Origin: Planctomycetota bacterium
GTDB lineage: Bacteria > Planctomycetota > UBA11346
DNA: 43,525 bases
Direction: 5' to 3'
NCBI GenBank assembly: GCA_027859175.1
Contig: JAQIBG010000432.1
Span: 1-43,525, forward strand
The notes beneath the pieces are model-generated. The model was not told the DNA's origin, did no database searches, and saw only the letters and a list, made by a program, of their open reading frames with translations. Numbering within the stretch: position 1 is the first letter of the stretch; every line of letters begins with the position of its first letter. The position numbers and the translations under genes were made by a program. Shown piece after piece: positions 41-41,171 of this stretch.

Positions 41-1003
41 ATGCCTGACACACAATGGTTTGCAGACTGCGGCTGGGGCGTTTTCTGCCACTACCTAGCC
101 AACCCGCCAAGCACCAAGACCAACACGCCACTCAGCGCCGAAGCATGGAACCAGCAGGTTGACGCCTTCGACGTAGACGGCCTTGCCCAGCAACTTGAGG
201 CCGTCAAGGCCCCCTACTTCTTCATTACCATCGGCCAAGGCTCGGGCCACTTCTGCGCCCCCAGCGACACCTACGACAAGCTTACCGGCATCACGCCAAG
301 CAAGTGTTCGCAACGCGATCTCGTTGCCGACCTCCACGCGGCACTGGCCCCGCGCGGCATCAAGTTGCTGGTGTATTCGGCGGCCGAGATTGGCTGGGGC
401 GATGCCGAGGCCCGCCCCGGGCTGAAGCTCACCCACCACCACAGCGACCCCGACAGCGGCGGCACCAAGATCTGGCGCCGTCATCGTCAGGTTGCGTTCA
501 TGAAAAATATCGAGGCCATCCACCGCGAGTGGTCAATCCGCTGGGGCAACAAAGTTGCCGGGTGGTGGATTGACGGCTGCTATGAAGAAGAATACCGATT
601 CCCAGACGACAAGGCGCCCAATTTCAAAACCTTCGCCGACTCCTTGCGCGCAGGCAATCGCGACGCCATCGTGTGCTTCAATACCGGCGTGCGCACCCCA
701 ATAAGCTGCACCACGCAATATGAAGATTACACCGCCGGTGAAATTGCCGACGCGCTACCCGAAAGCCCAGGCGCCTGGATTGACAAGCAAGGCCACAAGG
801 CGCGCTATCACGTGCTTAGCTATTTGGGTGACTACTGGTGCAAGGGCGCGCCGCGCTTCCCCACCGCACTGGTGACCGGCTACACCGAGCACGTCATGAG
901 CAAAGGCGGCGTGATGACCTGGGACGTACCGATCGCTCAAAACGGCCTGATTCCAGAGGCCTTTATCCAGCAACTCGCGCAGATCCGCAAGCCGCCTAGG
1001 TAA
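41..1003 (+). CDS. Alpha-L-fucosidase-like (GH29-type) protein, no obvious signal peptide
   Basis: ORF of 320 aa with GGGAGG Shine-Dalgarno upstream of ATG; N-terminal WFADCGWGVFCHY, FITIGQGSGHFCAPSDTYDK and GWWIDGCY (candidate nucleophile Asp) resemble GH29 fucosidase motifs. Confidence 0.7.
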   Translation: MPDTQWFADCGWGVFCHYLANPPSTKTNTPLSAEAWNQQVDAFDVDGLAQQLEAVKAPYFFITIGQGSGHFCAPSDTYDKLTGITPSKCSQRDLVADLHAALAPRGIKLLVYSAAEIGWGDAEARPGLKLTHHHSDPDSGGTKIWRRHRQVAFMKNIEAIHREWSIRWGNKVAGWWIDGCYEEEYRFPDDKAPNFKTFADSLRAGNRDAIVCFNTGVRTPISCTTQYEDYTAGEIADALPESPGAWIDKQGHKARYHVLSYLGDYWCKGAPRFPTALVTGYTEHVMSKGGVMTWDVPIAQNGLIPEAFIQQLAQIRKPPR

Positions 1004-1017
1004 CACATAGCGCGAAG

Positions 1018-2367
1018 CTAAGGCAGGTTGGCAGCCTTGACGCCATTGATCCGGAGGCCATGCACGGTGATGGCGTCAAGCTCTGCTGGACCAACCCCCA
1101 AGTGCCAGATCTGCACCGTGGCCAGCGGATCGCGCCCGCCACGTGAGTCGACAAAAGCGCTCATCGGAATCTCCAAATGGCTCCGTAGGGCCTCTGGAAC
1201 CGGGGCCACGGCTTCAAGATTAGTGACCCACTCCCCCAACGAATTGACCACAACCAGCACCAGCGCGATATCACACGCGCGTTTGGCACTCAGGTCAATT
1301 TCCAGGCTACGGATCTGATTCAACGGAATGACCACACCCTGCCGATCATAGCGCACGCGGATCTCGTGATAGGGCTGGCCCACATCGGTCTCGGTATTGA
1401 TCGCTGGCCGCAAGCCATCGGCCACCGCGCGGCCAAACCATGGCGCATCTAAACCAATTTCGGTCACACCTGACAAAACAGCCTGATCGGCCGACCACAA
1501 TACTTCAATGGCCTCCACCGAGCCAGGCTCAGGCGCACCCAGTGCGGACTGCCCGGACGGCATCGCATCACTACGCCGCTCGCCACCAGCCTGCACCAAG
1601 TCCACCGCACCACCAGGCAACTGCCAAGCGACCTGACCCTCATCCACGGCCAAGGAGCTTGCGGCCGCCTCGACAGTCACCCGGAATCGAGTCCCCACCA
1701 CCCGCATCTCGGCGTGCGGAGTCGCAATCGTCATCGGCAACTCAGGCCGTTGCGGCTGGGCCACAATCGCCATCGATCCGAGCGCGACCCACTGGCGGTT
1801 ATCGGCCTGGAGCTGCCAACGACAGCCGGCCTGGAGCTGGATCAGGCTGCCATCACGCAAGGCGATCCGTGCTGGGCCATGCACCCAAGCACCCGCATCC
1901 AAATCTGATCCGGGGCGCACCACGGCATCGGGCGCCCCTTCAAGCAGCGTGGCCAGAAGCCGCGCCGTGCTCGGCGTCGGGTCCACAAGCACAGGCCGAG
2001 TCTGATCGCGCGACTGCATCGCCACCAGACCACCGATCAGCCCCAGCGTCGCCACCAGCAGCAAGCCAATCACAGCCGGATGAATGGCACGCCGACGCGG
2101 TGCTGGCTGCCGACGGTGGCCGGGCTGACGCGCAGACCGTTTGCGCGGCGCCCGTGGGTGCACGCCGGTGCCGGTGCTGGCAAGCACCGGCACCGCCTTA
2201 CTGCTATCACCCAGATAGGTCTCCAACAGCGCGCCATCAATCGCGATCAGCGCAGCCCAAGCTCGGCGTACGTCGACATCAGCTAACAATTCGCTGAGTT
2301 CGTCGGCCTCAGCCGTTGTCAATGCGCCATCGATCAAGCGCTCATACAGAGCCTCCAAGCGCTTCAT
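1018..2367 (-). CDS. FecR-like anti-sigma factor with one TM segment and a large C-terminal domain
   Basis: N-terminal MKRLEALYERLIDGALTTAEADELSELLAD (regulator-type N-domain), TM AVIGLLLVATLGLIGGLVAM, FecR-like ATPHAEMRVVGTRFRVTVEAAASSLAVDEGQVAW, then about 190 aa of additional C-terminal sequence; ATGA overlap with upstream sigma gene. Confidence 0.8.
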   Translation of the reverse strand: MKRLEALYERLIDGALTTAEADELSELLADVDVRRAWAALIAIDGALLETYLGDSSKAVPVLASTGTGVHPRAPRKRSARQPGHRRQPAPRRRAIHPAVIGLLLVATLGLIGGLVAMQSRDQTRPVLVDPTPSTARLLATLLEGAPDAVVRPGSDLDAGAWVHGPARIALRDGSLIQLQAGCRWQLQADNRQWVALGSMAIVAQPQRPELPMTIATPHAEMRVVGTRFRVTVEAAASSLAVDEGQVAWQLPGGAVDLVQAGGERRSDAMPSGQSALGAPEPGSVEAIEVLWSADQAVLSGVTEIGLDAPWFGRAVADGLRPAINTETDVGQPYHEIRVRYDRQGVVIPLNQIRSLEIDLSAKRACDIALVLVVVNSLGEWVTNLEAVAPVPEALRSHLEIPMSAFVDSRGGRDPLATVQIWHLGVGPAELDAITVHGLRINGVKAANLP

Positions 2368-2918
2368 TGCACCTGCTCCCGCCGGCGCTCAATGCAGTTC
2401 CGCAAGGCGGCACGAATCCGACTCAGACTCACCTGAATCGCGCCTGCCGTGGCATGAAGCCGTTCAGCGATCGCGTCAAGGCTCAGGCCCTGGTGGTAGC
2501 GCAGGCCAATTAACTCTTGGTGCCGCGGCTGGGCTCCCTCAAGGCAAGTTTGCAGATGATGCAAGTCTTCGTCACAGCGCAGATCTTGTTCCTGGAGGGC
2601 CTGCTCGATGCGCTCCTGCAACTCCTCTGGCAACACGGGGCGCTCGCGCCGATGCCGCTTACAAATTTTTGGCGCCACCTTTCGGGCAATCCCACGCACC
2701 CAAGCATCGAAATCGCGACTGCGATCAAAATCCTCAATTCGGCGCAACACGATCATGTAGCACTCTTGGAAGGCATCCTCAACCAAGTCCTGGGGCAGCC
2801 ATAAACGCAGAAAGCCAAGCAACTGTTGGCGCCGGGCAACGAAACGCCCCAACAGCGCGTGCCCACTGGCATCGTGGCCCAAGTCGGTGACATCCTCAGA
2901 ATCGGTTTCGCCGCCCAT
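2364..2918 (-). CDS. RNA polymerase sigma-70 family (ECF-like) factor
   Basis: LVEDAFQECYMIVLRRIEDFDRSRDFDAWVRGIARK (region 2) and LIGLRYHQGLSLDAIAERLHATAGAIQVSLSRIRAALRNCI (region 4); start chosen at MGGETDSED within the 2364..2996 ORF. Confidence 0.88.
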   Translation of the reverse strand: MGGETDSEDVTDLGHDASGHALLGRFVARRQQLLGFLRLWLPQDLVEDAFQECYMIVLRRIEDFDRSRDFDAWVRGIARKVAPKICKRHRRERPVLPEELQERIEQALQEQDLRCDEDLHHLQTCLEGAQPRHQELIGLRYHQGLSLDAIAERLHATAGAIQVSLSRIRAALRNCIERRREQVQ

Positions 2919-3119
2919 GCCGGCTACCCTAACAAGCAGACACCAGTGATGGCAACGCCAATCATGTGAGTGAGCCACATCGCCACGACCTAGCAAGGCG
3001 GCTGTATGGTTCGAAGTGCTCGCGGCAAGGGCGCCGCTGAGTGAGCCACCGCGGGTGGCCCAAGCACCCAGTCTGTATGGTTTCGACTCCTGCCGGCAAT
3101 TGCCACTGGAGACAAGCCC

Positions 3120-6100
3120 ATGTGGACCCGCAGTTTTGCACTTCTGACCTTATGCTCCAGTCTAGCCCTGGCCCTTGATGCCAAGCCCCGCGTGATTGAA
3201 ATCGCGCCGGTCACACCTGACACCATCCGCGTAGTCGTGATTCACGGTGAAGCTGCCAGCGGCGCCCTGGAGCCCTATGTTCCGCAAGCAGACGACATCC
3301 TGGAGGTAAAGGGCAAGACCCGCGTGGTCTACGCCCCCGACTACCGCATTCGCGGTCACTTGACCAATCACGGAGCCCAGGTCCTGTTCCGGCCGGTCGA
3401 CGTACTAGCCAAAGACAACTGGGATGCCGACCGTCTATTTGCGACGTCAAACGTGGCACTGAGCTCAAGCAACGACAGTGCCTTCTCGAGCCCCCATCAG
3501 CCCAGCGCGATCGCGCGCAAGAGCAAGGTCCACCACTTTCGCATGAACGCACTCGGCGCCGACGCAAACTGGCCGCCGCCATTTTCCGAACGCCACACGG
3601 CCTATCTCACATTTTCCACGGCACTCACTCCAGGCAAAACCTATCGCCTAGACCTCAGCGCAGCCGGATGCGGCATCCACGATTATCTCCACCAACCCCA
3701 CAACGTTGTCACCGAATCCGTTCACGTCACCCACCTCGGCTTTCGCCCCGATGACCCATCCAAACACGCCTACCTGAGCTTATGGCTCGGCACCGGAGGC
3801 GCCTATGACTTCAATGACCAACAAGCCTTCGAGTTGATCGACCACAACACCGGCAGCACTGTCTTCAGCGGCCAGGCCAGCCAGGTCCGCGCCGTCGATG
3901 GGCAAGACGGCTTCGGCGAAGTTCACACTGGAACCGAGGTCTTAGTGTGCGACTTCTCCTCCTTTGACACCCCCGGTACCTATCGCCTCTATGTACCCGG
4001 CTACGGCTGCTCCTACCCCTTCCAGATCGATGACAATGCCACCTGGCAAGTGGCCGCGCGCAGCGCGATCCGTGGCCTCTACCACCATCGCTCTGGGATT
4101 GCCCTAACCGCCCCCTACGCCAGCTGGGAGCGGCCACGAAACTTTCACCCCGATGATGGTGTCGACATCTTCCAGTGCACCACCACCTGGGCCGTGGCGC
4201 CAAGCTCTGACGAACAAACCGAGATCCACGCCGCACTCAATGCCAGTAAAACCAGCAGTACAATCGAGGCCTGGGGTGGCTACCACGATGCCGGCGACTG
4301 GGATCGGCGCCCGCAACACCTCGGCATTCCACGCTTGCTGCTGCAACTGTACGACATCAACCCCGGCTATTGGCAGCAACAGGATCTCAATCTTCCGCCC
4401 GATGGCAGCTTACCAGACCTTCTCTGCGAAGCGGTGTGGCTGGTCGATTTTTACCAGCGAATGCAACGCAATGATGGCGGCGTGCGCGGCATGATTGAGC
4501 TCGACCAAGAAGGCACGCAATGGCCCGATGCCAGCTTCACCAATAGCCTGACCGTCTTGGCAACCGATGCCGACCCAATGACCAGCTACCTGTTCGCCTC
4601 CGTTGCCGCTCAAGCAGCTCGCGTCATTGCGCCCTTCGACAGTGCGCGCGCAGCCGGCTACCAAACCAGCGCCGAGAACGCGATGGCCTGGGCCGAAGCT
4701 TGGCTGGCAAACAATAACGGCGCCGCTCTGCATCACGGCTACCGCGATGCACGCAATGCCGCTGCGCTCGAACTGTATCGGCTAACTGGCGCCACAAACT
4801 GGCACCAACTATTTCTCCAGACCACGGCTTTCGATGGCAGCAAAGAGCTCAAGACCCAAGTTTGGGACAGCCACGATCAAGCCTTCAACGCCTTGGAATA
4901 TTGGCTGGCAGCTGATCGCAGCCGAGATCAACAGGTCCTCGCGAATGTGACCACCGCCATCACCGCCAGCGGCGAAGAGTGGCTAGGATTCCGAGCTTTA
5001 TTTGGCTTTGGCAACACACGAAATCCCTACGCCCCTCCCGGCTGGGGAAACATCACCCTGCCGGCCGCGATTCCACTGGTCGGCGCCCACCTCGTCACCG
5101 ACGATGAACGCTACCTATCGGGCTTGATCGAAAGCGTCCAATACAGCCTCGGCGCTAACCCCGACAACCGCAGCTATGTCACAGGATTGGGCCACAATCA
5201 GCCCGAACTGCCCCTGCATATGGACTCGCTAACCATGGGCACCGCGCCGCCTGAAGGCATCGTCCTCTACGGCCCCCATCCCGGTTACGAGTGGTCACAA
5301 TATTTATGGGAAGATGCCTACGTTCCCGCCATTAACTCGTGGCCAGTTGGCGAACGCTTTGCTCACCTCGGCGGCGGCGGCGTACAGAGTAATGAGTACA
5401 CCGTTATGCAAGGCATGGGGCCAGGTGCTTTCCTGTGGGGGTATCTCGCGGCCCAGGGGCGTGACACCACGCCGGCAAATCGGCCACCAAAGGCTGAGTT
5501 CAGCAGCAGCAGCGATGATCTACGCGTCCAACTCGATGCTTCTGCCTCGTCTGATCCAGATGGCGACACGCTTAGCTATACCTGGAATTATGGCGATGGC
5601 GGCAGCGCTAGCGGCAAGACGGCAGACCACACCTATGCAGCCGCTGGCAGCTATACCATCACGCTAAACGTCAGCGATGGCGCCCTCAGCCACACCACCA
5701 GCAAAACCGTCACCGTCTCAGCAGCCGCGGCGCCATTGCTGCCTGCGCTAAGCGACCCGGGCAATCTCAAGGCCGGCTTACGCTACCGCAGTTTTATCGG
5801 CACTTGGAGCGCCCTGCCTGACTTTGCAAGCCTGAGCGAACACAGCAGCGGCATTGCCACCACCCTGGGCTTGGACCAGCGCCCTGCTGATGATAATTTT
5901 GCCCTGAGCTTCGACGGCTCTCTGTTGGCCCCCGCAGACGGCGTCTATCAGTTTACCCTCAGCAGTGACGACGGTAGCCGCCTATTCATTGATGGCGAAC
6001 TGGTGATTAATCACGACGGCCTGCACGGCGCCGACAGCAAGACCGGCAGCATCGGCCTAGCACAAGGCCTGCATGCAATCTCGGTCGATTACTTCGAGAA

Positions 6101-6332
6101 GTCCGGCGGCCAAGCTCTGACCGTGCAGTGGACGCCCCCCGGCGGCACCGCTGTCAGCATTCCGGCCGCAGCGCTATCCCATCCGGATACCGGTGACCAA
6201 GCCTACCAAGCGGCGGACGGCCTGGTGGTTATGGAAGCAGAAGCGGCCACTGGTGGTGCCGCTGGCCGTGGCGCCTACACCGGCACCACGCTGCCAACCG
6301 GGAGCGGCGGCCATGCCAACGACGCGTCGTAG
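3120..6332 (+). CDS. GH9 family glycoside hydrolase (endoglucanase-like) with PKD and PA14 domains, C-terminus probably truncated
   Basis: Signal peptide; N-terminal Ig-like domain; GGYHDAGDWDRRPQH (GH9 catalytic base motif), YSLGANPDNRSYVTGLG and NEYTVMQGMGPGAFLWGYL (C-terminal GH9 motifs); PKD LDASASSDPDGDTLSYTWNYGDG; PA14 GVYQFTLSSDDGSRLFIDGELVINHDGLHG. Confidence 0.9.
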   Translation: MWTRSFALLTLCSSLALALDAKPRVIEIAPVTPDTIRVVVIHGEAASGALEPYVPQADDILEVKGKTRVVYAPDYRIRGHLTNHGAQVLFRPVDVLAKDNWDADRLFATSNVALSSSNDSAFSSPHQPSAIARKSKVHHFRMNALGADANWPPPFSERHTAYLTFSTALTPGKTYRLDLSAAGCGIHDYLHQPHNVVTESVHVTHLGFRPDDPSKHAYLSLWLGTGGAYDFNDQQAFELIDHNTGSTVFSGQASQVRAVDGQDGFGEVHTGTEVLVCDFSSFDTPGTYRLYVPGYGCSYPFQIDDNATWQVAARSAIRGLYHHRSGIALTAPYASWERPRNFHPDDGVDIFQCTTTWAVAPSSDEQTEIHAALNASKTSSTIEAWGGYHDAGDWDRRPQHLGIPRLLLQLYDINPGYWQQQDLNLPPDGSLPDLLCEAVWLVDFYQRMQRNDGGVRGMIELDQEGTQWPDASFTNSLTVLATDADPMTSYLFASVAAQAARVIAPFDSARAAGYQTSAENAMAWAEAWLANNNGAALHHGYRDARNAAALELYRLTGATNWHQLFLQTTAFDGSKELKTQVWDSHDQAFNALEYWLAADRSRDQQVLANVTTAITASGEEWLGFRALFGFGNTRNPYAPPGWGNITLPAAIPLVGAHLVTDDERYLSGLIESVQYSLGANPDNRSYVTGLGHNQPELPLHMDSLTMGTAPPEGIVLYGPHPGYEWSQYLWEDAYVPAINSWPVGERFAHLGGGGVQSNEYTVMQGMGPGAFLWGYLAAQGRDTTPANRPPKAEFSSSSDDLRVQLDASASSDPDGDTLSYTWNYGDGGSASGKTADHTYAAAGSYTITLNVSDGALSHTTSKTVTVSAAAAPLLPALSDPGNLKAGLRYRSFIGTWSALPDFASLSEHSSGIATTLGLDQRPADDNFALSFDGSLLAPADGVYQFTLSSDDGSRLFIDGELVINHDGLHGADSKTGSIGLAQGLHAISVDYFEKSGGQALTVQWTPPGGTAVSIPAAALSHPDTGDQAYQAADGLVVMEAEAATGGAAGRGAYTGTTLPTGSGGHANDAS

Positions 6333-6674: not shown

Positions 6675-7397
6675 TCAACGCCCAGCAATCACGCTCGGAT
6701 CTTTGATCCCATACCAAGCCTGCTTCGGTGACAGCGATTCGTTATGGCCGTCACAGAAGTTATAATTGGCGCGTCCACGATGGCGAATCTCGGCATCGTG
6801 GTGATCGCGGAACTTGCCCTCAGCACCCAACGTGGTGATGCCTGCCCCCCAGGAACAGCCGAACACGACGCGATCAGACTGGTGCTTGACCGTCGCCTGA
6901 TGGAAGTCGGTATTGTTCCAACTCATCACCTGGATGAAATTGGTGGCGTCGCTGTTCGGACGATCCAGGTAATTGTTCATGCCAAAACCGGGTCGCCACC
7001 CCCAAGCACCACTCTTATCATTCACGAAATCTGGGCAGCCTTTGATGACCGTGCTGATATCGCCCTTCACAATGGCCAGGCGACCATCGCGATCAACGCG
7101 TTCGCGCTCTACATAGGGCGCAAGCTCCAGAAACCAGATCGTCGTCGGCCCCCACGCCGCCTCACATTGCGTATAGGTCTCGCGCCGGACATAGTAGCCG
7201 TCGTTGTCTTCCTGATACGCCAAGTGGGCCATTCCAATCTGGCGCAGATTTGAGTTACACTTGATCGCCCGCGCCGAAGCGCGCGCCATGTTCACCGCCG
7301 GAATCAACAGGCCTGCCAGCACAGCGATGATCGACACCACCACCAGCAATTCGATTAACGTAAACCCCTTGTCGCTCCGCATGGACATGCTCCTCAC
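6675..7397 (-). CDS. Prepilin-type N-terminal cleavage/methylation domain protein (pseudopilin 1)
   Basis: [48 protein letters not shown]-terminal [18 protein letters not shown]. Confidence 0.92.
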
Positions 7398-8723: not shown

Positions 8724-11700
8724 TATTTCGCCTTTACGTCAACGGTGACCGAGCCACCCAATGTTCGATTCGCATAGCTGCCGTCTGGTGACACATAGAA
8801 CACCACGGCAATCCGTTCGTAGCCAGCCGGCATCTTCGCGGGGGCTTCGTAGGGCGTGGTCACCCCCGGCACAATCTTGGGCTTATGACCACTGCCACCA
8901 ACCCCAGGCTTGCGCTTGCCACCATTGAAGCCGTGCAGATCAACGCGCAGAATCTGCTGCTTGGCAATCGTCTCGGTGCCGAACACCACCTGGAAGTCGA
9001 TCGTATCACCTGGAGCCGCCTCCTTAGGCACCGACACCGAACCCCAGTCGAAGGCCTTGACGGTGCGCTCAGGGCCATCTTTGAAGACCTTGGCAGTCGT
9101 GCTCGCTTCAACTTCTTTCTCAACATCCTCCTCCGGCTCGGGCGGCGTGTAGCGGATCGGCCGTTGCCCGGTAACCGCCAGGTTCTCCAAGGCACCGGCA
9201 TCACGCTGTCCATTAGGAGCGTGACCGGCAAAGTCATGGAGTTGCGGGCCATTAAACTGCCAGGTCATCAACTCGTCGATATCAGTCTGTGCATCCGCCA
9301 GGGTGCCGCGCGCAACGCGCAGGTAGTCAAGCGCACCAGCGAAGCCGTCACCCACCACAAAGTCAGCGGTATTATCAAGCGACACGCTTGCTGCCGGCAT
9401 CTGACCCGAAGCATCACCCGTCACATCCTTGCCATCCACATACACGGTCACGCGGCCCGCAACGCGATCGATTTCGGCCAAGACGTGATGCCACACCCCA
9501 TCATCAACGCGCACCGTCGCCAGTTGCCGCAACTCACTACCACCACCAATCAGACGCACTGCCGGACGACCGCCGTCGATCACCAGTGCGTAACCACTCT
9601 CGGTGCCCAGCTTGCCGGCGAGCACACCGTCTGCCGATACCGTCAGCACGGCCTCAATTAGGAAGTTATTGGTGTCCATCCGTACCGTCTGACGCTTGCT
9701 GCCGTCAACCGTGGTTTTCTCGACCTCCTTGCCCTTCTTCTTCTCAAAGACCATATCCTTGACCAGTTGCTGTTGCGCCAAGCGCAGCACCCGCTTGCCA
9801 TCCAACTGAAGCGCACCGTCAACCCAATCCTCCAAGGGGCCGGCGCGGTAATCGTCGAGGGTATAGCCAGTGGCCACCAAATCGTTGCCAGGAATCGCGC
9901 CACCAAGCATTTGCCGTTGCCCGCCAAACAACTTTTGCATGTACACATCGTAGCCGAGCACGGTCTGCGGATCGGCCGGATGCTTGCGGAAATGCCACTC
10001 GCCAACCTGGCCGCTAAGCGACCAGGGCACGAACACCTGCACGCCGCGGTCAATCGCCGCCGAGGTGTCGGTCAGTCGGAAGTCGCGCTGCTCCGGATCG
10101 CGGGTAATCGGATCGTCGGTCACCCAGCCCATGCTCGAGGTGATATTATTGCCAGCCTCGGCGATCGCTGCCGCGAACTCATCCGGGGTCACATACTTGG
10201 CACCACGCCAGCGGCTGAACACAGCTTGCACACCGTTGCCGACTACGTTGTTGGAATAGGCGATTTCCGGTGCTTCAAGCAGGGTCCAGGAACTAATCGC
10301 CGAGAAGTGCATCCCTTCAAATACGTTGCCGAGTACATGCTGCTGCTCGCCATGGCGGCTCGAATGGCGCTGCCCATTACGAAAACAATACCCAGTATTG
10401 TGGAAGACCTGGTTCAGGCGGTTGCGGATCCCATTGATGAAGGCATCGCCAACAATGCCCTTGTAGGCATCATCACGGCGCTCACTCCAGCCAATGTTGT
10501 TGAACAGGTAGGCCTTGATGCCGTGGTCTTGATAGAAGGCTTCGTTCTTATGGTAGACTTTGCGGTGCGCGACGAATCCAACCGGGTTGGCCGAGATATT
10601 GTTATAGATGTAGGCCGGGCCATTGCCCCAGAACTCGATGCCGCCAAAGTCGGTCCGATAGATCAGGCTGTCGACCACCTTGTTGCTCCTGATTTGAATT
10701 CGAACTAAGGGCGTATCAGCGGCATTGCCACCCATCCAGGCCGCGGAGGGCCGACCACCAACCACGTTGATGCCCTGCCCGCCGGTGGTGTGGATCACAT
10801 TACCGGCGATATCGCACACTTCAGGGCCGCTTAGGTTGATACCATTACCAGAGCCCGAACTATGACTGCGCAGGCCGATGGTTTGAAAGCGATTGCGCAG
10901 GACATTCACCTCAGTGAGGCGCCCCTTGGGATGCGATTCCACACGCCGGTAGCTATAGCCACGTCCAAGGCTGATGCCGGTGGTGTCAATGCGTTCGAAT
11001 TCACTGTCGCGAATCGTGATGCCGCGCACCACATCCTCGGCGCCGGTGATTAGATTGGTGACCGCCCCACCGGTGGTGTCGATCACGCGCAGGTTGTAGA
11101 GCTCAATATCTTGACAGTTACCCAGCAGGCGAATCGCGCTGTTGACATCGCAGGGCTTCGGCGCGTTGTAATCCTCAACATCGGGTGACTTGCGCAGATC
11201 CTGCACATTGGCGCCGGTGAAGGTCAGGCCCCCCACTACGATGTGCTGCTGACCGTGGATATCCAAGATGATCTCGTGCACCGCCGCTTCGAGCACCACG
11301 CTTGCTGGATCGACTCCCTCGGGCAGCCACACCGACAAACGACGCTCGCCTTGGTCAAAGAACCATTCGCCGGGTTCGTCCAGAAAATGCGCCGAGTTCT
11401 CTAAAAAGAACGGCGTGTCCTTACGCGGATGCCGGGCCGGATGCTCCAGACGCACCTGGAAGCTCCCGTCAGCCGGGTTGAATCCCTTCAAAGGCGACGG
11501 GAACGGTCCGTAGATCGAGAACTCACCACTCTTGTTTGGATGGTCTGCCCACACCGTCACACCCTTGAGCGCATCACGATCGGCCCCCTTGAGATCATCG
11601 CTGCGCAGGGAGATCCACGGAAACTTGAACTTGGCTTCATCAATCCGAAACCACTGCGTAAAGTGGTCGTAGGGATGTTCAATCTGCCAGTTGGGCCAGC

Positions 11701-13010: not shown

Positions 13011-14066
13011 TTAGGGTGAAGCAGGGGCGCAACTGCACCCCCGAAAAAGCTCATAAGGCATAGCAAGCGGCGCCCGAGGCTCAGACGGATCCGCAATCTT
13101 GGCCAGCAACTCGTCAACCGCACGACGCCCCATATTCGCCGCGTCGGTCCAAAAGCGGCTCAGGCCAAGACCGGCAGGGTCTTGCAGGCCCTGATCCACA
13201 AACAGGATCGACAGGTCGTGCGGAACACGCAGGCCCAATGACAGGGCCGCCATCATTGCCACTGTCGCCGAGCCCGCATTATCGGCCAGAATCGCAGTTG
13301 GGCGCGGTTCGGAGTTCAGCCAATCACGACCATGAGCGATGCGATCATCGCCACCTTGTTCATGCGTGTGCGGGCGCATGTCGCGCTCCCACACGAGGCG
13401 CCGCCGCCGAGCCGCTTTCATCACATCCACGTAGCCCTGACGGCGATCACGCACGCTGTAGTGATGCGCACTCGCGAGCGTCGTGTGCGACCACAATGCA
13501 ATCCGACGATGTCCCAAGCCGAGTAAATACTCGGTCGCCCGGCGTGCGCCCTGATAATCATCGGGATGCACACAGTCTTCAGGCCGTTTGTTATTGAGCC
13601 AGATTGTGGGGATACGGAAGCGCGCGATCAATTCAGTTAGGGCCGGCGGTTCGTTGTGGGAATACCCCATCAACAAGCCATCAAGCATCTGCTCTCGCAA
13701 CAGGCCCGGCAGCACCTGCTGATCACCGAGCTGATCATCGCTGAGGCGCGCCACGGCCAAGTGCATGTCATGGAGCGCCAGTTGGTCGTGAATGCCCTGC
13801 AGCAAACCGGTCGCAACCGTACTGGTGCTGCGCCCGCGTGACAAAACCAAACCAACGGTGCCAAAACGGCCCTCGCGCATCGCGCGCGCAGCCTGGTTAG
13901 GACGATAGCCCAATTCGTGCGCTACAGCGCGAATCCGCTCAGCACGCTCCACCGCATCTCTACGCGCGCCCTTGCCCCCCTCGCCATTCAGCACCCGGCA
14001 AGCGGTGCGAATCGACACGCCGGCACGCTGCGCAATCTCGTCGAGGGTGGCCTTGGTGGTGGTCAT
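13011..14066 (-). CDS. LacI family transcriptional regulator (LacI-1)
   Basis: TLDEIAQRAGVSIRTACRVLNGEGGKG HTH, RPNQAARAMREGRFGTVGLVLSR, periplasmic-binding-like effector domain. Confidence 0.93.
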   Translation of the reverse strand: MTTTKATLDEIAQRAGVSIRTACRVLNGEGGKGARRDAVERAERIRAVAHELGYRPNQAARAMREGRFGTVGLVLSRGRSTSTVATGLLQGIHDQLALHDMHLAVARLSDDQLGDQQVLPGLLREQMLDGLLMGYSHNEPPALTELIARFRIPTIWLNNKRPEDCVHPDDYQGARRATEYLLGLGHRRIALWSHTTLASAHHYSVRDRRQGYVDVMKAARRRRLVWERDMRPHTHEQGGDDRIAHGRDWLNSEPRPTAILADNAGSATVAMMAALSLGLRVPHDLSILFVDQGLQDPAGLGLSRFWTDAANMGRRAVDELLAKIADPSEPRAPLAMPYELFRGCSCAPASP

Positions 14067-14110
14067 CGGCCTGTATTTTAGCCGCGATCGCAGCACGGTC
14101 CAGCACTATA

Positions 14111-14206: not shown

Positions 14207-15184
14207 TCAGCCCGGCTCAACCATCGACACCGGCAAGACCTCGGCCTTCTGGCTCGGACCACCTGCGATCCGGCGCATCAGCATTTCAACGCCACGCTGA
14301 CCGATACCCCGCATCGGCATGGTGACGGTAGGCAGATACGAGGCGCCGAACACATAGGGCCGCTCATTCACCAGCGTAATGATCAGATCGCTGCGCCCGT
14401 GCTGCATAGCCCACAGGCAGAGATCATGGGCTTCATTCTGGCAGTAGCAGAACACGCCATCCACATCGCTGCTCATCAAGCGAGCCCCCTCCGCCTCCCA
14501 CAGCTGCTGCTCGGTCTGCCGCTCCCCTGCCGGAGGAATAAACAAGGCAACGGGCTCACTACCCGCCGCAGCCAGAAAGCCTTCCATACGATCAACCATA
14601 CTATGGTGGCTCGCGGCAAAGCGGGTCACGTAGGCGATGTTGCGGCAGCCCCGATCGCGCAGGTAGTCATAGGCAATACGCCCAGCCATGACATCGTCTG
14701 GATACACCGAGTCGTACTCATGGCGACCGTTGAGAAACACTACTGGATAATGCCGTAAATTCTTGGCCACTTGATGATCAAATCCATCCGGTTGACCGTT
14801 GATCAACACGCCATCGGCATGGGTCTCGCGCATGATGGCTGGCAATTCGCCATCGCTCACCGCAGTGAGATGGCGAGCCAAGAGCTTGCAGTAGAGCAAG
14901 CGCTTGCAGTGCGCGTCAAGGGCATCGTGAATTCCGTCGATCATTTGACCGGAGATCCACAGTTCAGCCAAGTTGGAACCGGCAATCAAAGCCACGGTGT
15001 CAAAGACGCCGCTGCGCATCGCCGTCGGCAGGGCGCTGCCGCGATAACCAAGTTCCTCGGCAGCGGCCAGCACCTTATCCCGCGTCGCGCTGCCGAAGGT
15101 CCCCGCCTTGCCGCGCAACACATTGCTGACCGTCATCGCTGATACGCCCGCCTGTCGCGCCACATCCCGAACTGTTACCGCCAT
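14207..15184 (-). CDS. LacI family transcriptional regulator (LacI-2)
   Basis: MAVTVRDVARQAGVSAMTVSNVLRGKAGTFGSATRDKVLAAAEELGYRGSALPTAMRSG; start supported by AAGGTGG upstream. Confidence 0.93.
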   Translation of the reverse strand: MAVTVRDVARQAGVSAMTVSNVLRGKAGTFGSATRDKVLAAAEELGYRGSALPTAMRSGVFDTVALIAGSNLAELWISGQMIDGIHDALDAHCKRLLYCKLLARHLTAVSDGELPAIMRETHADGVLINGQPDGFDHQVAKNLRHYPVVFLNGRHEYDSVYPDDVMAGRIAYDYLRDRGCRNIAYVTRFAASHHSMVDRMEGFLAAAGSEPVALFIPPAGERQTEQQLWEAEGARLMSSDVDGVFCYCQNEAHDLCLWAMQHGRSDLIITLVNERPYVFGASYLPTVTMPMRGIGQRGVEMLMRRIAGGPSQKAEVLPVSMVEPG

Positions 15185-15228
15185 ACCTGACCACCTTAGG
15201 TCAGTCAAAGACAGAAACAACTACCAGA

Positions 15229-15328: not shown

Positions 15329-16069
15329 ATGCCTAAGTTACCGAAGAATAAGCAGCGCAGCGGCTTCACCTTGATCGAACTCCTGGTGGTAGTGTCGATT
15401 CTGGCGATTCTGGTGGCCCTGCTGTTACCCGCCATTTCGATGGCCAAGCGCTCGGCCCGCAACCTGCAATGCCAATCCAACCTGCGGCAAATCGGCCTGG
15501 GCCTAGCCGGCTACTCACTCGACAATGACGGCTTCATCGTGCCCGTGGTTCGCGAAGACGGAACCAACGGCGTCACGTGGTACGTTGAGATCATGCCCTA
15601 TGTCGAATCCCAAATGGTTAGCCAACGCAACGACAAGAGCGGCGGCGTCTTCTACGGATGCCCTGAATGGCAGGGCCGCTACGGCAACAACGGGAGCTTT
15701 GCCAACACCAGCTTTGGCTATGGACTCAATGGCTACCCCGGACTTCCCGAGAACAACGCCTCCAGCAATTTCCGCCGCTATAACCCAGCCAACGGCCGCG
15801 GCGAATGGGGCAAAGCCGAACTGTTCCACGAACAGCAAATTACCTTCAATACCAACCGACTCTACGTAGCCGACTCCAACGACTGGCACTGTTACGGATT
15901 GCGCAGCAACGGCGTGGTCAACGAGCGCATTGAAGGTGGCTGGTCAAGCTACATCGGCGAGCGCCACGATAGCCGGATCAATGCCGTGTTCTTTGACGGC
16001 CACGTTGCCTCACCACACCTCGACGCAGCGCAGTTGGCAATCCTCAATCCACAACAAGCGCCGCCCTAA
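15329..16069 (+). CDS. Prepilin-type N-terminal cleavage/methylation domain protein (pseudopilin 2)
   Basis: [48 protein letters not shown]-terminal [15 protein letters not shown]. Confidence 0.92.
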
Positions 16070-23749: not shown

Positions 23750-23893
23750 TAGTATTCACGCAACAAACGCAGCCACCGCTCCAGAGCAACTGCTGACATG
23801 CACCAGCCTGTAGCTCAATACGGCACCGTGTGCCAGACCGCAAAGTCGGATAAGCGCCTCATTCAGTCTCAGACCAAACCACCAGGAAGCCTC

Positions 23894-24676
23894 ATGCAAC
23901 GACGCGCCTTTACCCTGATCGAACTTCTCGTGGTCGTCTCCATTATTGCCGTCTTGGCCGCACTCCTGCTACCTGCCGTGGGCATGGCTCGTGACGGCGC
24001 CCGCAGCGCGCAATGCTTCTCAAACCTGCGCCAACTCGGCCTCGGCATCATCAGCTATACCGACAGCTGGCATGGCATGCTGCCACCCGATCGCCGTTTC
24101 CTGCCTGGCAACTCTGAACTCACCTGGGATTCCCACCTCGTGGCCTCAGAATTGTATGATTTCAACAGCAACACCAGCGTCAGCAACGCCTTCAACTGGG
24201 CCGCACGCGGCAATCGCTCGCGCGGCGTATTTTCATGCCCATCAAGCCCTTCAAGCATCACAATCTGGCACAGCAACTCGGAATACGGCCTCAACTCCGT
24301 GCTGTGCCCGTACGTCAACTGGAACCCCAGCAACAGCACCAACCAACCCTATGGAGTCGAACGGGTCACCCAGATCGCAACCGTAGCTCGGTCAACCGAA
24401 ACCTACCTCATCGGCGATGCCACCAACATCCGCAATGAGAGCGGCACTATGAAGTACTATACCACCTCTGGCCTGCCCACAGGGCTGCTCAAGAACGACC
24501 CGCCGAGCCCAAGCAACGGCATCGACCTCCGCCACCGCGGCGGCGTCAATATCACCTTCGTTGACGGCCACGTTGAGCGTGTCAATAAAAAGGACCTCCC
24601 GATATCCGACGTCACCGGCGAGCACTGGAGCTACCACCCACAGCGCAGCCCCTGGGCCGCCCAGCCAATCGATTAA
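23894..24676 (+). CDS. Prepilin-type N-terminal cleavage/methylation domain protein (pseudopilin 3)
   Basis: [49 protein letters not shown] with AGGAAG Shine-Dalgarno; C-terminal [17 protein letters not shown]. Confidence 0.93.
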
Positions 24677-29017: not shown

Positions 29018-29722
29018 CTAGGGTGCAGACCGCTGTGCCGGGTCAGTCACTGCCATCCAGGCCTCTGGATACGGAACCGACTCAACGTGAGAATCGAAGA
29101 ACACTGCGTTGACTTTATTGCCGTGGCGCAGCCCTTCGCCAACCCAATTTTTATCGATCGACTGATAGACATACTTGCTATTGAGCAGACCAATGAGATG
29201 CCAGTCATTAGCGTCAGCAACCGCAATCCGATCGCTTTGGTGCGTCACCTGGGATTGGTGGAAAAACTGCGATGCCGGCCCCCAATTGTCTCGAAAGTTA
29301 CTGTCGTTGGGGTTGTCGGGCAGACCAGGCTCGGGGTTGATCCCATAGCCAAAACCGGTGCGAGCCAGCTGCCCCGATCCCAGCGTCCGACCGCGCCACG
29401 AAGGGCATCCGTAAAAGACCCCACCGCCGGCTTCACCAGGCTGAGTCAGGTTCGACTCCACGTATGGCATCACGAAATTGTGCCAGGTGCCCGAGAACGG
29501 GACATCTTCGGGAGCCACGGCGGCAACCATGAAACCATCGTTATCCATTGCATAGCCCTCCAGTCCCAATCCGATCTGACGCAGGCTAGACTGGCATTCT
29601 ATTTTGCGCGCCGCTTCACGCGCCATGTTGATCGCCGGCAACAGCAAGGCTGCCAGAATCGCAATGATGGTGATAACCACGAGGAGTTCGATCAAAGTGA
29701 ATCCGGCCTGATTGGTCTTCAT
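29018..29722 (-). CDS. Prepilin-type N-terminal cleavage/methylation domain protein (pseudopilin 4)
   Basis: [52 protein letters not shown]-terminal [14 protein letters not shown]. Confidence 0.93.
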
Positions 29723-29853
29723 GGTAGCACCCTCGCTCGTATCGGTCAGGTAGTGATGCGTCCCGCAGCGAGCGGTGGCACCATCATGGCACACATCCTA
29801 GCCCAAATGAACATTTGCGACAAGAGGACTCTCACAGTAAACATAGCACTATC

Positions 29854-40145: not shown

Positions 40146-41171
40146 TCATGATTCATCCTCCGCGTGCGCAGGAGCGCGCCGTCTCAAGCTTGTGCCTGGT
40201 CTGACTGTGAGCTCAAAAGGGATAGCCTGACTCGCAAACGAGCGCCCGGTCTTGATTTTGCGCAGGAGCGCCCTGACGCCTTCGCGCCCCATGTGGGCGT
40301 CCGGCGTCCGCATGACCCAATGCGGCGATTGAAAATAAATGTGCGAAGCCGAGGTAAAGAATCCGATTGGGCACCCTCGATACCACGGTGCGGTCACCAC
40401 ACTTTCTTCAAGACCACCATAACAGATCACCGCCTCAGGTTTGAAGTCTTCCAAGCAGCGGTTGATGTAGTCGTGGATGCCGAGCTCATCGCCAACGCGA
40501 GACGGGGCCACCACCAGCGGCTTGCGCTTGGCGTCATGCATCGCGCCGAGATACCCAGCCAAGCGATCATCCACGCTATAATGCCGTGACGCAGCTGGAA
40601 TATCCTGACCAACATAGGCGATACGTCGTAGCCCTTGCTCCAAGAAACACTGGGTCAATTTCCGGGCGGCACCCAGGTCGTCGGGATAGATGCAGTCACG
40701 CGGCAGCTTGGTATTGAGAAATACCGACGGCACGCGCTCAGCAGCACAGCGATCAACAAAGAGTTGCGGGGCGCCGGTGGTAAACCAAGTCAGCAGACCA
40801 TCAACGCAGCGTTGCTTGAAAATCTCGGCTTGCCCCTCGCCATCAACCGAGCGCGGCACCTGGGTCACCGTCAACTGCATGTCAACCTCATTGAGCACCG
40901 CCATGACCTCACCGAGGAGATGCCGCGAGATGCCCTGGCCCCATCCGCCGTAGTCGATTAGCAGCGAAATCGCATTGAAGCGCCCGCGCACGATAGACCG
41001 AGCAGCGGCGTTCGGCTTGTACCCCATCTCCGCCGCCAGTTCACGAATCTGCGCGGCCCGCGCCTGCATCGACGGGCGGTTTTCCTTATACTTGCCATTG
41101 AGCACCTGGGACACGGTGGCCGGTGACACGCCAGCCCGCTGCGCGATATCAGCGATTTTAACCACAAGCAT
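40146..41171 (-). CDS. LacI family transcriptional regulator (LacI-3)
   Basis: KIADIAQRAGVSPATVSQVLNGKYKENRPSMQARAAQIRELAAEMGYKPNAAARSIVRGRF. Confidence 0.93.
   Translation of the reverse strand: MLVVKIADIAQRAGVSPATVSQVLNGKYKENRPSMQARAAQIRELAAEMGYKPNAAARSIVRGRFNAISLLIDYGGWGQGISRHLLGEVMAVLNEVDMQLTVTQVPRSVDGEGQAEIFKQRCVDGLLTWFTTGAPQLFVDRCAAERVPSVFLNTKLPRDCIYPDDLGAARKLTQCFLEQGLRRIAYVGQDIPAASRHYSVDDRLAGYLGAMHDAKRKPLVVAPSRVGDELGIHDYINRCLEDFKPEAVICYGGLEESVVTAPWYRGCPIGFFTSASHIYFQSPHWVMRTPDAHMGREGVRALLRKIKTGRSFASQAIPFELTVRPGTSLRRRAPAHAEDES

Follow-up and report, generated by a model that had tools for sequence, protein, structure and literature searches.

The sigma/anti-sigma locus

The window studied here, a stretch of 43,525 nucleotides from a Planctomycetota bacterium (contig JAQIBG010000432.1), encodes near its left end an ECF-type sigma-70 factor (2364..2918, minus strand) and a FecR-type anti-sigma factor of 449 aa (1018..2367, minus strand; ATG at 2367), the stop of the sigma gene overlapping the start of the anti-sigma gene by 4 bases (ORF ends 2364 and 2367). 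The sigma gene is contained in a longer minus-strand ORF (2364-2996), in which the ATG at 2918 is the likelier start. Its product matches the Pfam Sigma70_r2 and Sigma70_r4 families, and TIGR02989 was the top-scoring of the NCBIfam matches listed (103.6 bits, 9.6e-30), short of its curated cut-off of 124.55; the protein is described here as being of the Rhodopirellula/Verrucomicrobium type, TIGR02989-like. Upstream of the pair lies a GH9 glycoside hydrolase gene (3120..6332, plus strand), the product of which matches Glyco_hydro_9 (E 4e-27) and also contains CelD_N, PKD and PA14 domains. On the other side is a gene encoding a possible GH29 alpha-L-fucosidase (41..1003, plus strand), an assignment that is weak (Alpha_L_fucos, 27.1 bits against a Pfam cut-off of 25.2). 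A preliminary description of this DNA, made from the sequence alone, had proposed a sigma/FecR-like anti-sigma pair at 1018-2918 located between a GH29-like fucosidase and a GH9 gene; the ORFs, the Pfam matches to FecR and to sigma regions 2 and 4, and the matches on both flanks, that to GH29 being weak, bear this out. Because the GH9 gene is transcribed divergently from the sigma gene, and the fucosidase gene convergently with the anti-sigma gene, both fall outside the sigma/anti-sigma operon, and both are considered candidate target genes.

The window contains three LacI-type regulator-like ORFs (13011-14096, 14207-15220 and 40146-41171), which may mean that nearby glycan genes are controlled by other regulators. 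Four prepilin-like genes are also found in the window (6675-7397, 15329-16069, 23798-24676 and 29018-29794), several of them near genes of carbohydrate-active type.

The divergent intergenic region defined by the gene coordinates (2919..3119) contains two copies of the box pair GAGTGAGCCAC-N24-TGTATGGTT, at 2968..3011 and, 71 bp downstream with the same spacing, at 3039..3082 (both plus strand), in which the spacer sequence has diverged. This double arrangement occurred in none of 3000 dinucleotide shuffles and in 7 of 1875 genomic slices. It is the double arrangement only that is unusual: TGTATGGTT by itself is not below chance frequency in the window, and a degenerate version of the box motif is no more than slightly commoner genome-wide than its reversed control. 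No third copy of the box pair was detected anywhere in the genome at up to three mismatches, and no promoter motif common to this locus and other genes was found in the genome. The box pairs may serve the divergent sigma/GH9 pair as promoters or operators, and nothing ties them to the sigma factor.

Architecture of the anti-sigma protein

A full-length AlphaFold model of the anti-sigma protein (19 sequences, mean pLDDT 72.8) consists of an N-terminal group of helices (residues 2-52), a transmembrane helix, a FecR solenoid and a C-terminal beta-sandwich (residues 310-443). The cytoplasmic N-domain (residues 1-52; 2212..2367, minus strand) is modeled as a three-helix bundle with a pLDDT of about 90 and is presumed to bind the sigma factor; its helical pattern is common to the FecR paralogs, and no DUF4880 match was obtained in Pfam for the window protein, whereas the E. 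coli FecR control does match. The single transmembrane helix (residues 95-121; 2005..2085, minus strand) is identified by the model and by a hydropathy maximum of about 2.5 in 19-residue windows starting at residues 97-99, and the N terminus is placed inside because an Arg/Lys-rich stretch precedes this peak. The periplasmic FecR domain (PF04773, residues 165-246; 1630..1875, minus strand) scores 32 bits against a Pfam cut-off of 24 and is predicted to be a beta-solenoid, with PupR (6ovk_R) as the best PDB match to the whole protein in Foldseek searches (rmsd 2.0 over 107 columns). Weak matches of the FecR protein to acylphosphatase and histone families were taken as chance.

In E. coli FecR and in FoxR, a Gly-Thr bond is self-cleaved, after which RseP frees the cytoplasmic part of the protein (PMC9249621). 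The equivalent of the E. coli FecR Gly181-Thr182 bond in the window protein is Gly225-Thr226 (1690..1695, minus strand), which aligns with it exactly in terms of residue presence, and the Gly-Thr pair is invariant in 75/75 members of the family. Self-cleavage is dispensable in FoxR (PMC9249621), and the FoxR residues are termed non-conserved in another study (PMC7186176). The genome encodes a site-2 protease.

The FecR domain, single transmembrane helix, sigma pairing and Gly-Thr bond all match FecR and FoxR, and could be read as canonical FecIR signaling, in which an outer-membrane TonB-dependent receptor, for a siderophore or a glycan, contacts the anti-sigma C terminus. We consider this reading very improbable. 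The STN module is the part by which FecR-type proteins dock to TonB receptors (PMC7186176), and neither FecR_C nor STN was detected by Pfam in the window protein at E values up to 1; like DUF4880, this module is detected in the E. coli FecR control. There is no TonB-dependent receptor gene near the locus, and the whole assembly (88% complete) yields three Plug matches, none of them on this contig, against 15 FecR proteins.

The putative C-terminal sensor domain

The C-terminal domain of the anti-sigma protein (residues 285-446; 1030..1515, minus strand) was delimited from the AlphaFold model, Foldseek searches and its relatives. The roughly 185 residues following FecR match no Pfam family, and neither the window domain nor its close relatives match any Pfam CBM family, including CBM_11; an HTH_Tnp_2 match was taken as chance. 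The domain is conserved: profile searches of other genomes matched it with E values of 1.4e-32 and 5e-18. When modeled in isolation from five sequences, it is all-beta, with a pLDDT of about 70-86 in the core (mean 63.7), and Foldseek searches with this model placed CIA30, CBM11 (E 1.8e-4) and CBM30 (2.0e-4) on top, with CBM6 and a laminarin-binding module further down. With the full-length model, CBM22, CBM28, CBM11 and CBM29 were found below PupR. The CBM11 match (6r31_A) has TM-scores of 0.46-0.49 to what is a moderate-confidence model, and TM-scores to the CBMs as a whole range from 0.40 to 0.49. The sandwich also matches non-sugar proteins, among them CIA30, seipin and viral capsids; because of these unrelated jelly-roll matches and the level of the TM-scores, it is the fold class, and not sugar binding, that the models indicate. 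We assign the sensor with moderate confidence to the CBM-type (CBM11/CBM30/CIA30-like) sandwich class. The preliminary description had called for the order N-domain, transmembrane helix, FecR, C-terminal domain, and had noted that the last of these looks like a beta-sandwich. Pfam FecR, hydropathy and the AlphaFold model agree with this order, and the sandwich is recovered at moderate pLDDT. The fold prediction and fold search that it had named as able to overturn its proposal returned CBM11, CBM30 and CIA30 as nearest neighbors (TM 0.4-0.5) and did not overturn it.

Module exchange among FecR paralogs

The genome containing the window encodes 15 FecR proteins, and in its paralogs the domain following FecR is identified by Pfam as LamG in two cases and CBM_11 in one. 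In a Pfam search of 75 family FecR proteins, the domains identified were PA14 (7 proteins), LamG (6), GLEYA (3), CBM_11 (2), the SGBP_B (SGBP-B) xyloglucan-binding domain (2), beta-helix (2), and CBM96, NPCBM and a 3-keto-disaccharide hydrolase domain (1 each). The extension behind FecR has a median length of 203 residues in the family. When aligned by hhalign to a profile of 20 other FecR extensions, of which one is CBM_11-positive, the window sensor was matched with a probability of 89 (E 2.5e-6). A sigma gene is located directly upstream of, or is fused to, 77 of the 81 FecR genes surveyed. These recognized carbohydrate-associated modules, in the same position of the paralogs, strengthen the analogy to RsgI on which the preliminary description had been built.

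Since the top fold match of the sandwich is CIA30/NDUFAF1, which is no sugar sensor, the domain could instead be a structural or protein-binding tether, to the cell wall, the surface layer or an envelope protein, by which the anti-sigma factor senses the state of the envelope. We regard this as unlikely, as the same slot in the paralogs holds PA14, LamG, CBM_11, CBM96, NPCBM and the xyloglucan-binding domain, and as the sensor loci adjoin hemicellulase genes.

Two other arrangements were observed among the paralogs. Sigma and FecR share one ORF at L017:6668-9724 (minus strand; 1018 aa) and at L131:4383-8291 (minus strand; 1302 aa), the latter with PA14 behind FecR; by their sequence, these are candidates for a single-polypeptide sigma/anti-sigma/sensor. 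One genome, G008, has many FecR paralogs (L142-L159) with extensions that carry a common WQTVSIPL...F...W(V/F)T pattern; they represent an expansion, specific to this lineage, of a single sandwich-like type of sensor.

Relatives of the sensor and their neighboring genes

A single-sequence search with the C-terminal domain in 23 genomes of the class returned its own sequence alone, and the full anti-sigma protein searched against the genome contigs gave no match. A two-row profile, composed of the window domain and the C terminus of a FecR protein from genome G012, was required to detect relatives; used against 392 genomes of the phylum it found more, every one in the window's own family, and a four-row profile added a relative in G020. 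Intact relatives of the sandwich are thus present in four other genomes (G012, G003, G015 and G020). In the first three the domain is C-terminal to FecR, and in G020 the contig stops at the domain, leaving its partner out of view. A degraded paralog on contig C44 of the window's own genome (L028:5849-6614, minus strand) has FecR and the sensor domain in different frames, with frameshifts, and lies next to regulator-like ORFs of the AraC and LacI types and a gene resembling those for pectate lyases. In G003, two FecR genes occur in tandem (L085:6650-8392 and 8822-9985, minus strand), the other one having a 300-residue extension of an unrecognized type.

In a tree of the sigma factors, those of the window, G012 and G003 group together with an own-genome sigma factor whose anti-sigma factor bears LamG (support 0.998), and the G015 sigma is placed elsewhere despite having an anti-sigma factor with the same sensor. 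The groupings cut across sensor type, so that the sensor appears, from these sequences, to move between sigma/FecR chassis.

Glycoside hydrolase genes recur near the sensor. The G012 relative adjoins a gene for a GH74 xyloglucanase, the G003 relative has GH74 at a distance of 6.8 kb, the G015 relative has a GH51-like gene nearby and GH9 at 7.4 kb, and the G020 relative has GH29, GH2 and esterase genes nearby. GH9, GH29 or GH74 is found within about 8 kb at 5/5 sensor loci as against 3/76 other FecR loci, a count that was devised once the loci were known and that is based on few loci with uneven flanks. With the window excluded, and also the G012 locus from which the GH74 query came, the comparison is 3/3 against 3/76 (Fisher p about 3e-4). 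Queries for GH9, GH29, GH74, GH51 and GH2 had zero matches in a 160 kb control sequence. The wider comparison of glycoside hydrolase genes next to FecR pairs covered 97 neighbors and 60 control genes with the best 25 of 128 families, and most G008 loci in it have no called neighbor. As a set, the GH9, GH29 and GH74 families are what one would expect to act on xyloglucan and hemicelluloses akin to it, and because they recur near the sensor loci, xyloglucan-type hemicellulose is the leading candidate for the substrate. The GH74 xyloglucanase genes near two of the relatives make the xyloglucan-type substrate, which had first been put forward as a guess, a stronger one.

Carbohydrate-active genes abound in the genome, and the sensor might bind a polysaccharide while its regulon lies elsewhere, the proximity of GH9 and GH29 reflecting only a CAZyme-dense genome. 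This is a possible reading, if a doubtful one. In its favor, further CAZyme-type genes are present in the window (GH2-like, two pectate-lyase-like and LamG/GH141-like), the fucosidase gene is convergent, and the box pairs occur at no other site, so that no wider regulon is visible. Set against it is the difference between the sensor loci and the other FecR loci in their GH9/29/74 neighbors, together with the empty control sequence.

A proposed FecR-based counterpart of SigI/RsgI

In Clostridium thermocellum, the sensors of RsgI proteins include CBM3, CBM42, PA14, GH10 and others, and a self-cleaving step in the periplasmic domain of RsgI has been proposed to precede RseP (PMC12203970). The window system resembles SigI/RsgI in having an anti-sigma factor with one transmembrane helix, a presumed N-terminal sigma-binding domain and an exchangeable extracytoplasmic C terminus, with PA14 occurring in both (PMC12203970), and in its many paralogous pairs and the self-cleavage proposed ahead of RseP. 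It differs in that the periplasmic part is a FecR beta-solenoid, whereas RsgI has a self-cleaving domain of its own, and in that the partner is an ECF sigma factor of the Rhodopirellula/Verrucomicrobium type (TIGR02989-like) from the Planctomycetota, rather than a SigI factor from the Clostridia. In searches of Pfam and NCBIfam for the RsgI N-domain and self-cleaving domain, FecR was the sole convincing match in the window protein. FecR, FoxR and PupR share with it the FecR domain (PupR 6ovk), the single transmembrane helix, the sigma pairing and the Gly-Thr bond (PMC9249621, PMC7186176), but here STN/FecR_C is replaced by a predicted CBM-type sandwich, no TonB receptor is nearby and the N-domain lacks a DUF4880 match. 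The ECF52 protein SCO4117 of Streptomyces coelicolor likewise couples sigma control, across the membrane, to a carbohydrate-binding domain on the extracytoplasmic side, although in that case the sigma factor carries the module within its own polypeptide and a FecR protein is absent (PMC8999054). The CBM11 and CBM30 modules of C. thermocellum cellulases resemble the sensor in its predicted fold class, without a sequence-family match, but belong to enzymes and not to anti-sigma factors. By anatomy the window protein is RsgI-like, but it does not belong to RsgI and is instead a FecR protein that lacks the known signal-receiving module. In the open-access literature, no account of carbohydrate-binding modules in FecR proteins was found.

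We propose that the two proteins form a transmembrane switch, of the sigma/anti-sigma kind, for the use of plant polysaccharides, similar to SigI/RsgI and built on a FecR chassis, and assign this reading a probability of roughly 0.6. At the level of architecture, there is good support for an RsgI-like sensor of polysaccharides built on FecR; the pairing, domain order, missing STN/FecR_C, sensor fold class, module exchange and recurring GH9/GH29/GH74 neighbors were all computed here. In the proposed mechanism, the N-terminal helical domain would hold the ECF sigma factor inactive at the inner membrane, as expected from its family, and the FecR domain would probably be cut or weakened at Gly225-Thr226, by analogy with FecR and FoxR. 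The sandwich would bind a poly- or oligosaccharide, most likely a hemicellulose of the beta-glucan/xyloglucan type to judge from its fold, paralogs and neighbors. Binding of this ligand may then expose the stub to an RseP-type protease and free the sigma factor, which would transcribe its own operon and the nearby glycoside hydrolase genes, the divergent GH9 gene first.

The proposal can be extended to the planctomycete family as a whole, in which FecR anti-sigma factors would form a plug-in platform: the docking module would have been swapped for exchangeable glycan-binding modules across dozens of paralogs, with one polysaccharide for each pair and the self-cleaving FecR bond as the first cut, giving a counterpart of RsgI derived from a different starting protein. 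We hold the chances of this broader proposal to be about even. Planctomycetes possess very many sigma factors with unassigned input. If FecR proteins are direct sensors of polysaccharides, the C-terminal module would predict the substrate and the neighboring genes would predict the response, and dozens of sigma factors would become testable. FecR proteins in this phylum would no longer be taken for iron regulators by default, and the RsgI design would have been reached independently, through two distinct proteins, for both of which periplasmic self-cleavage has been reported.
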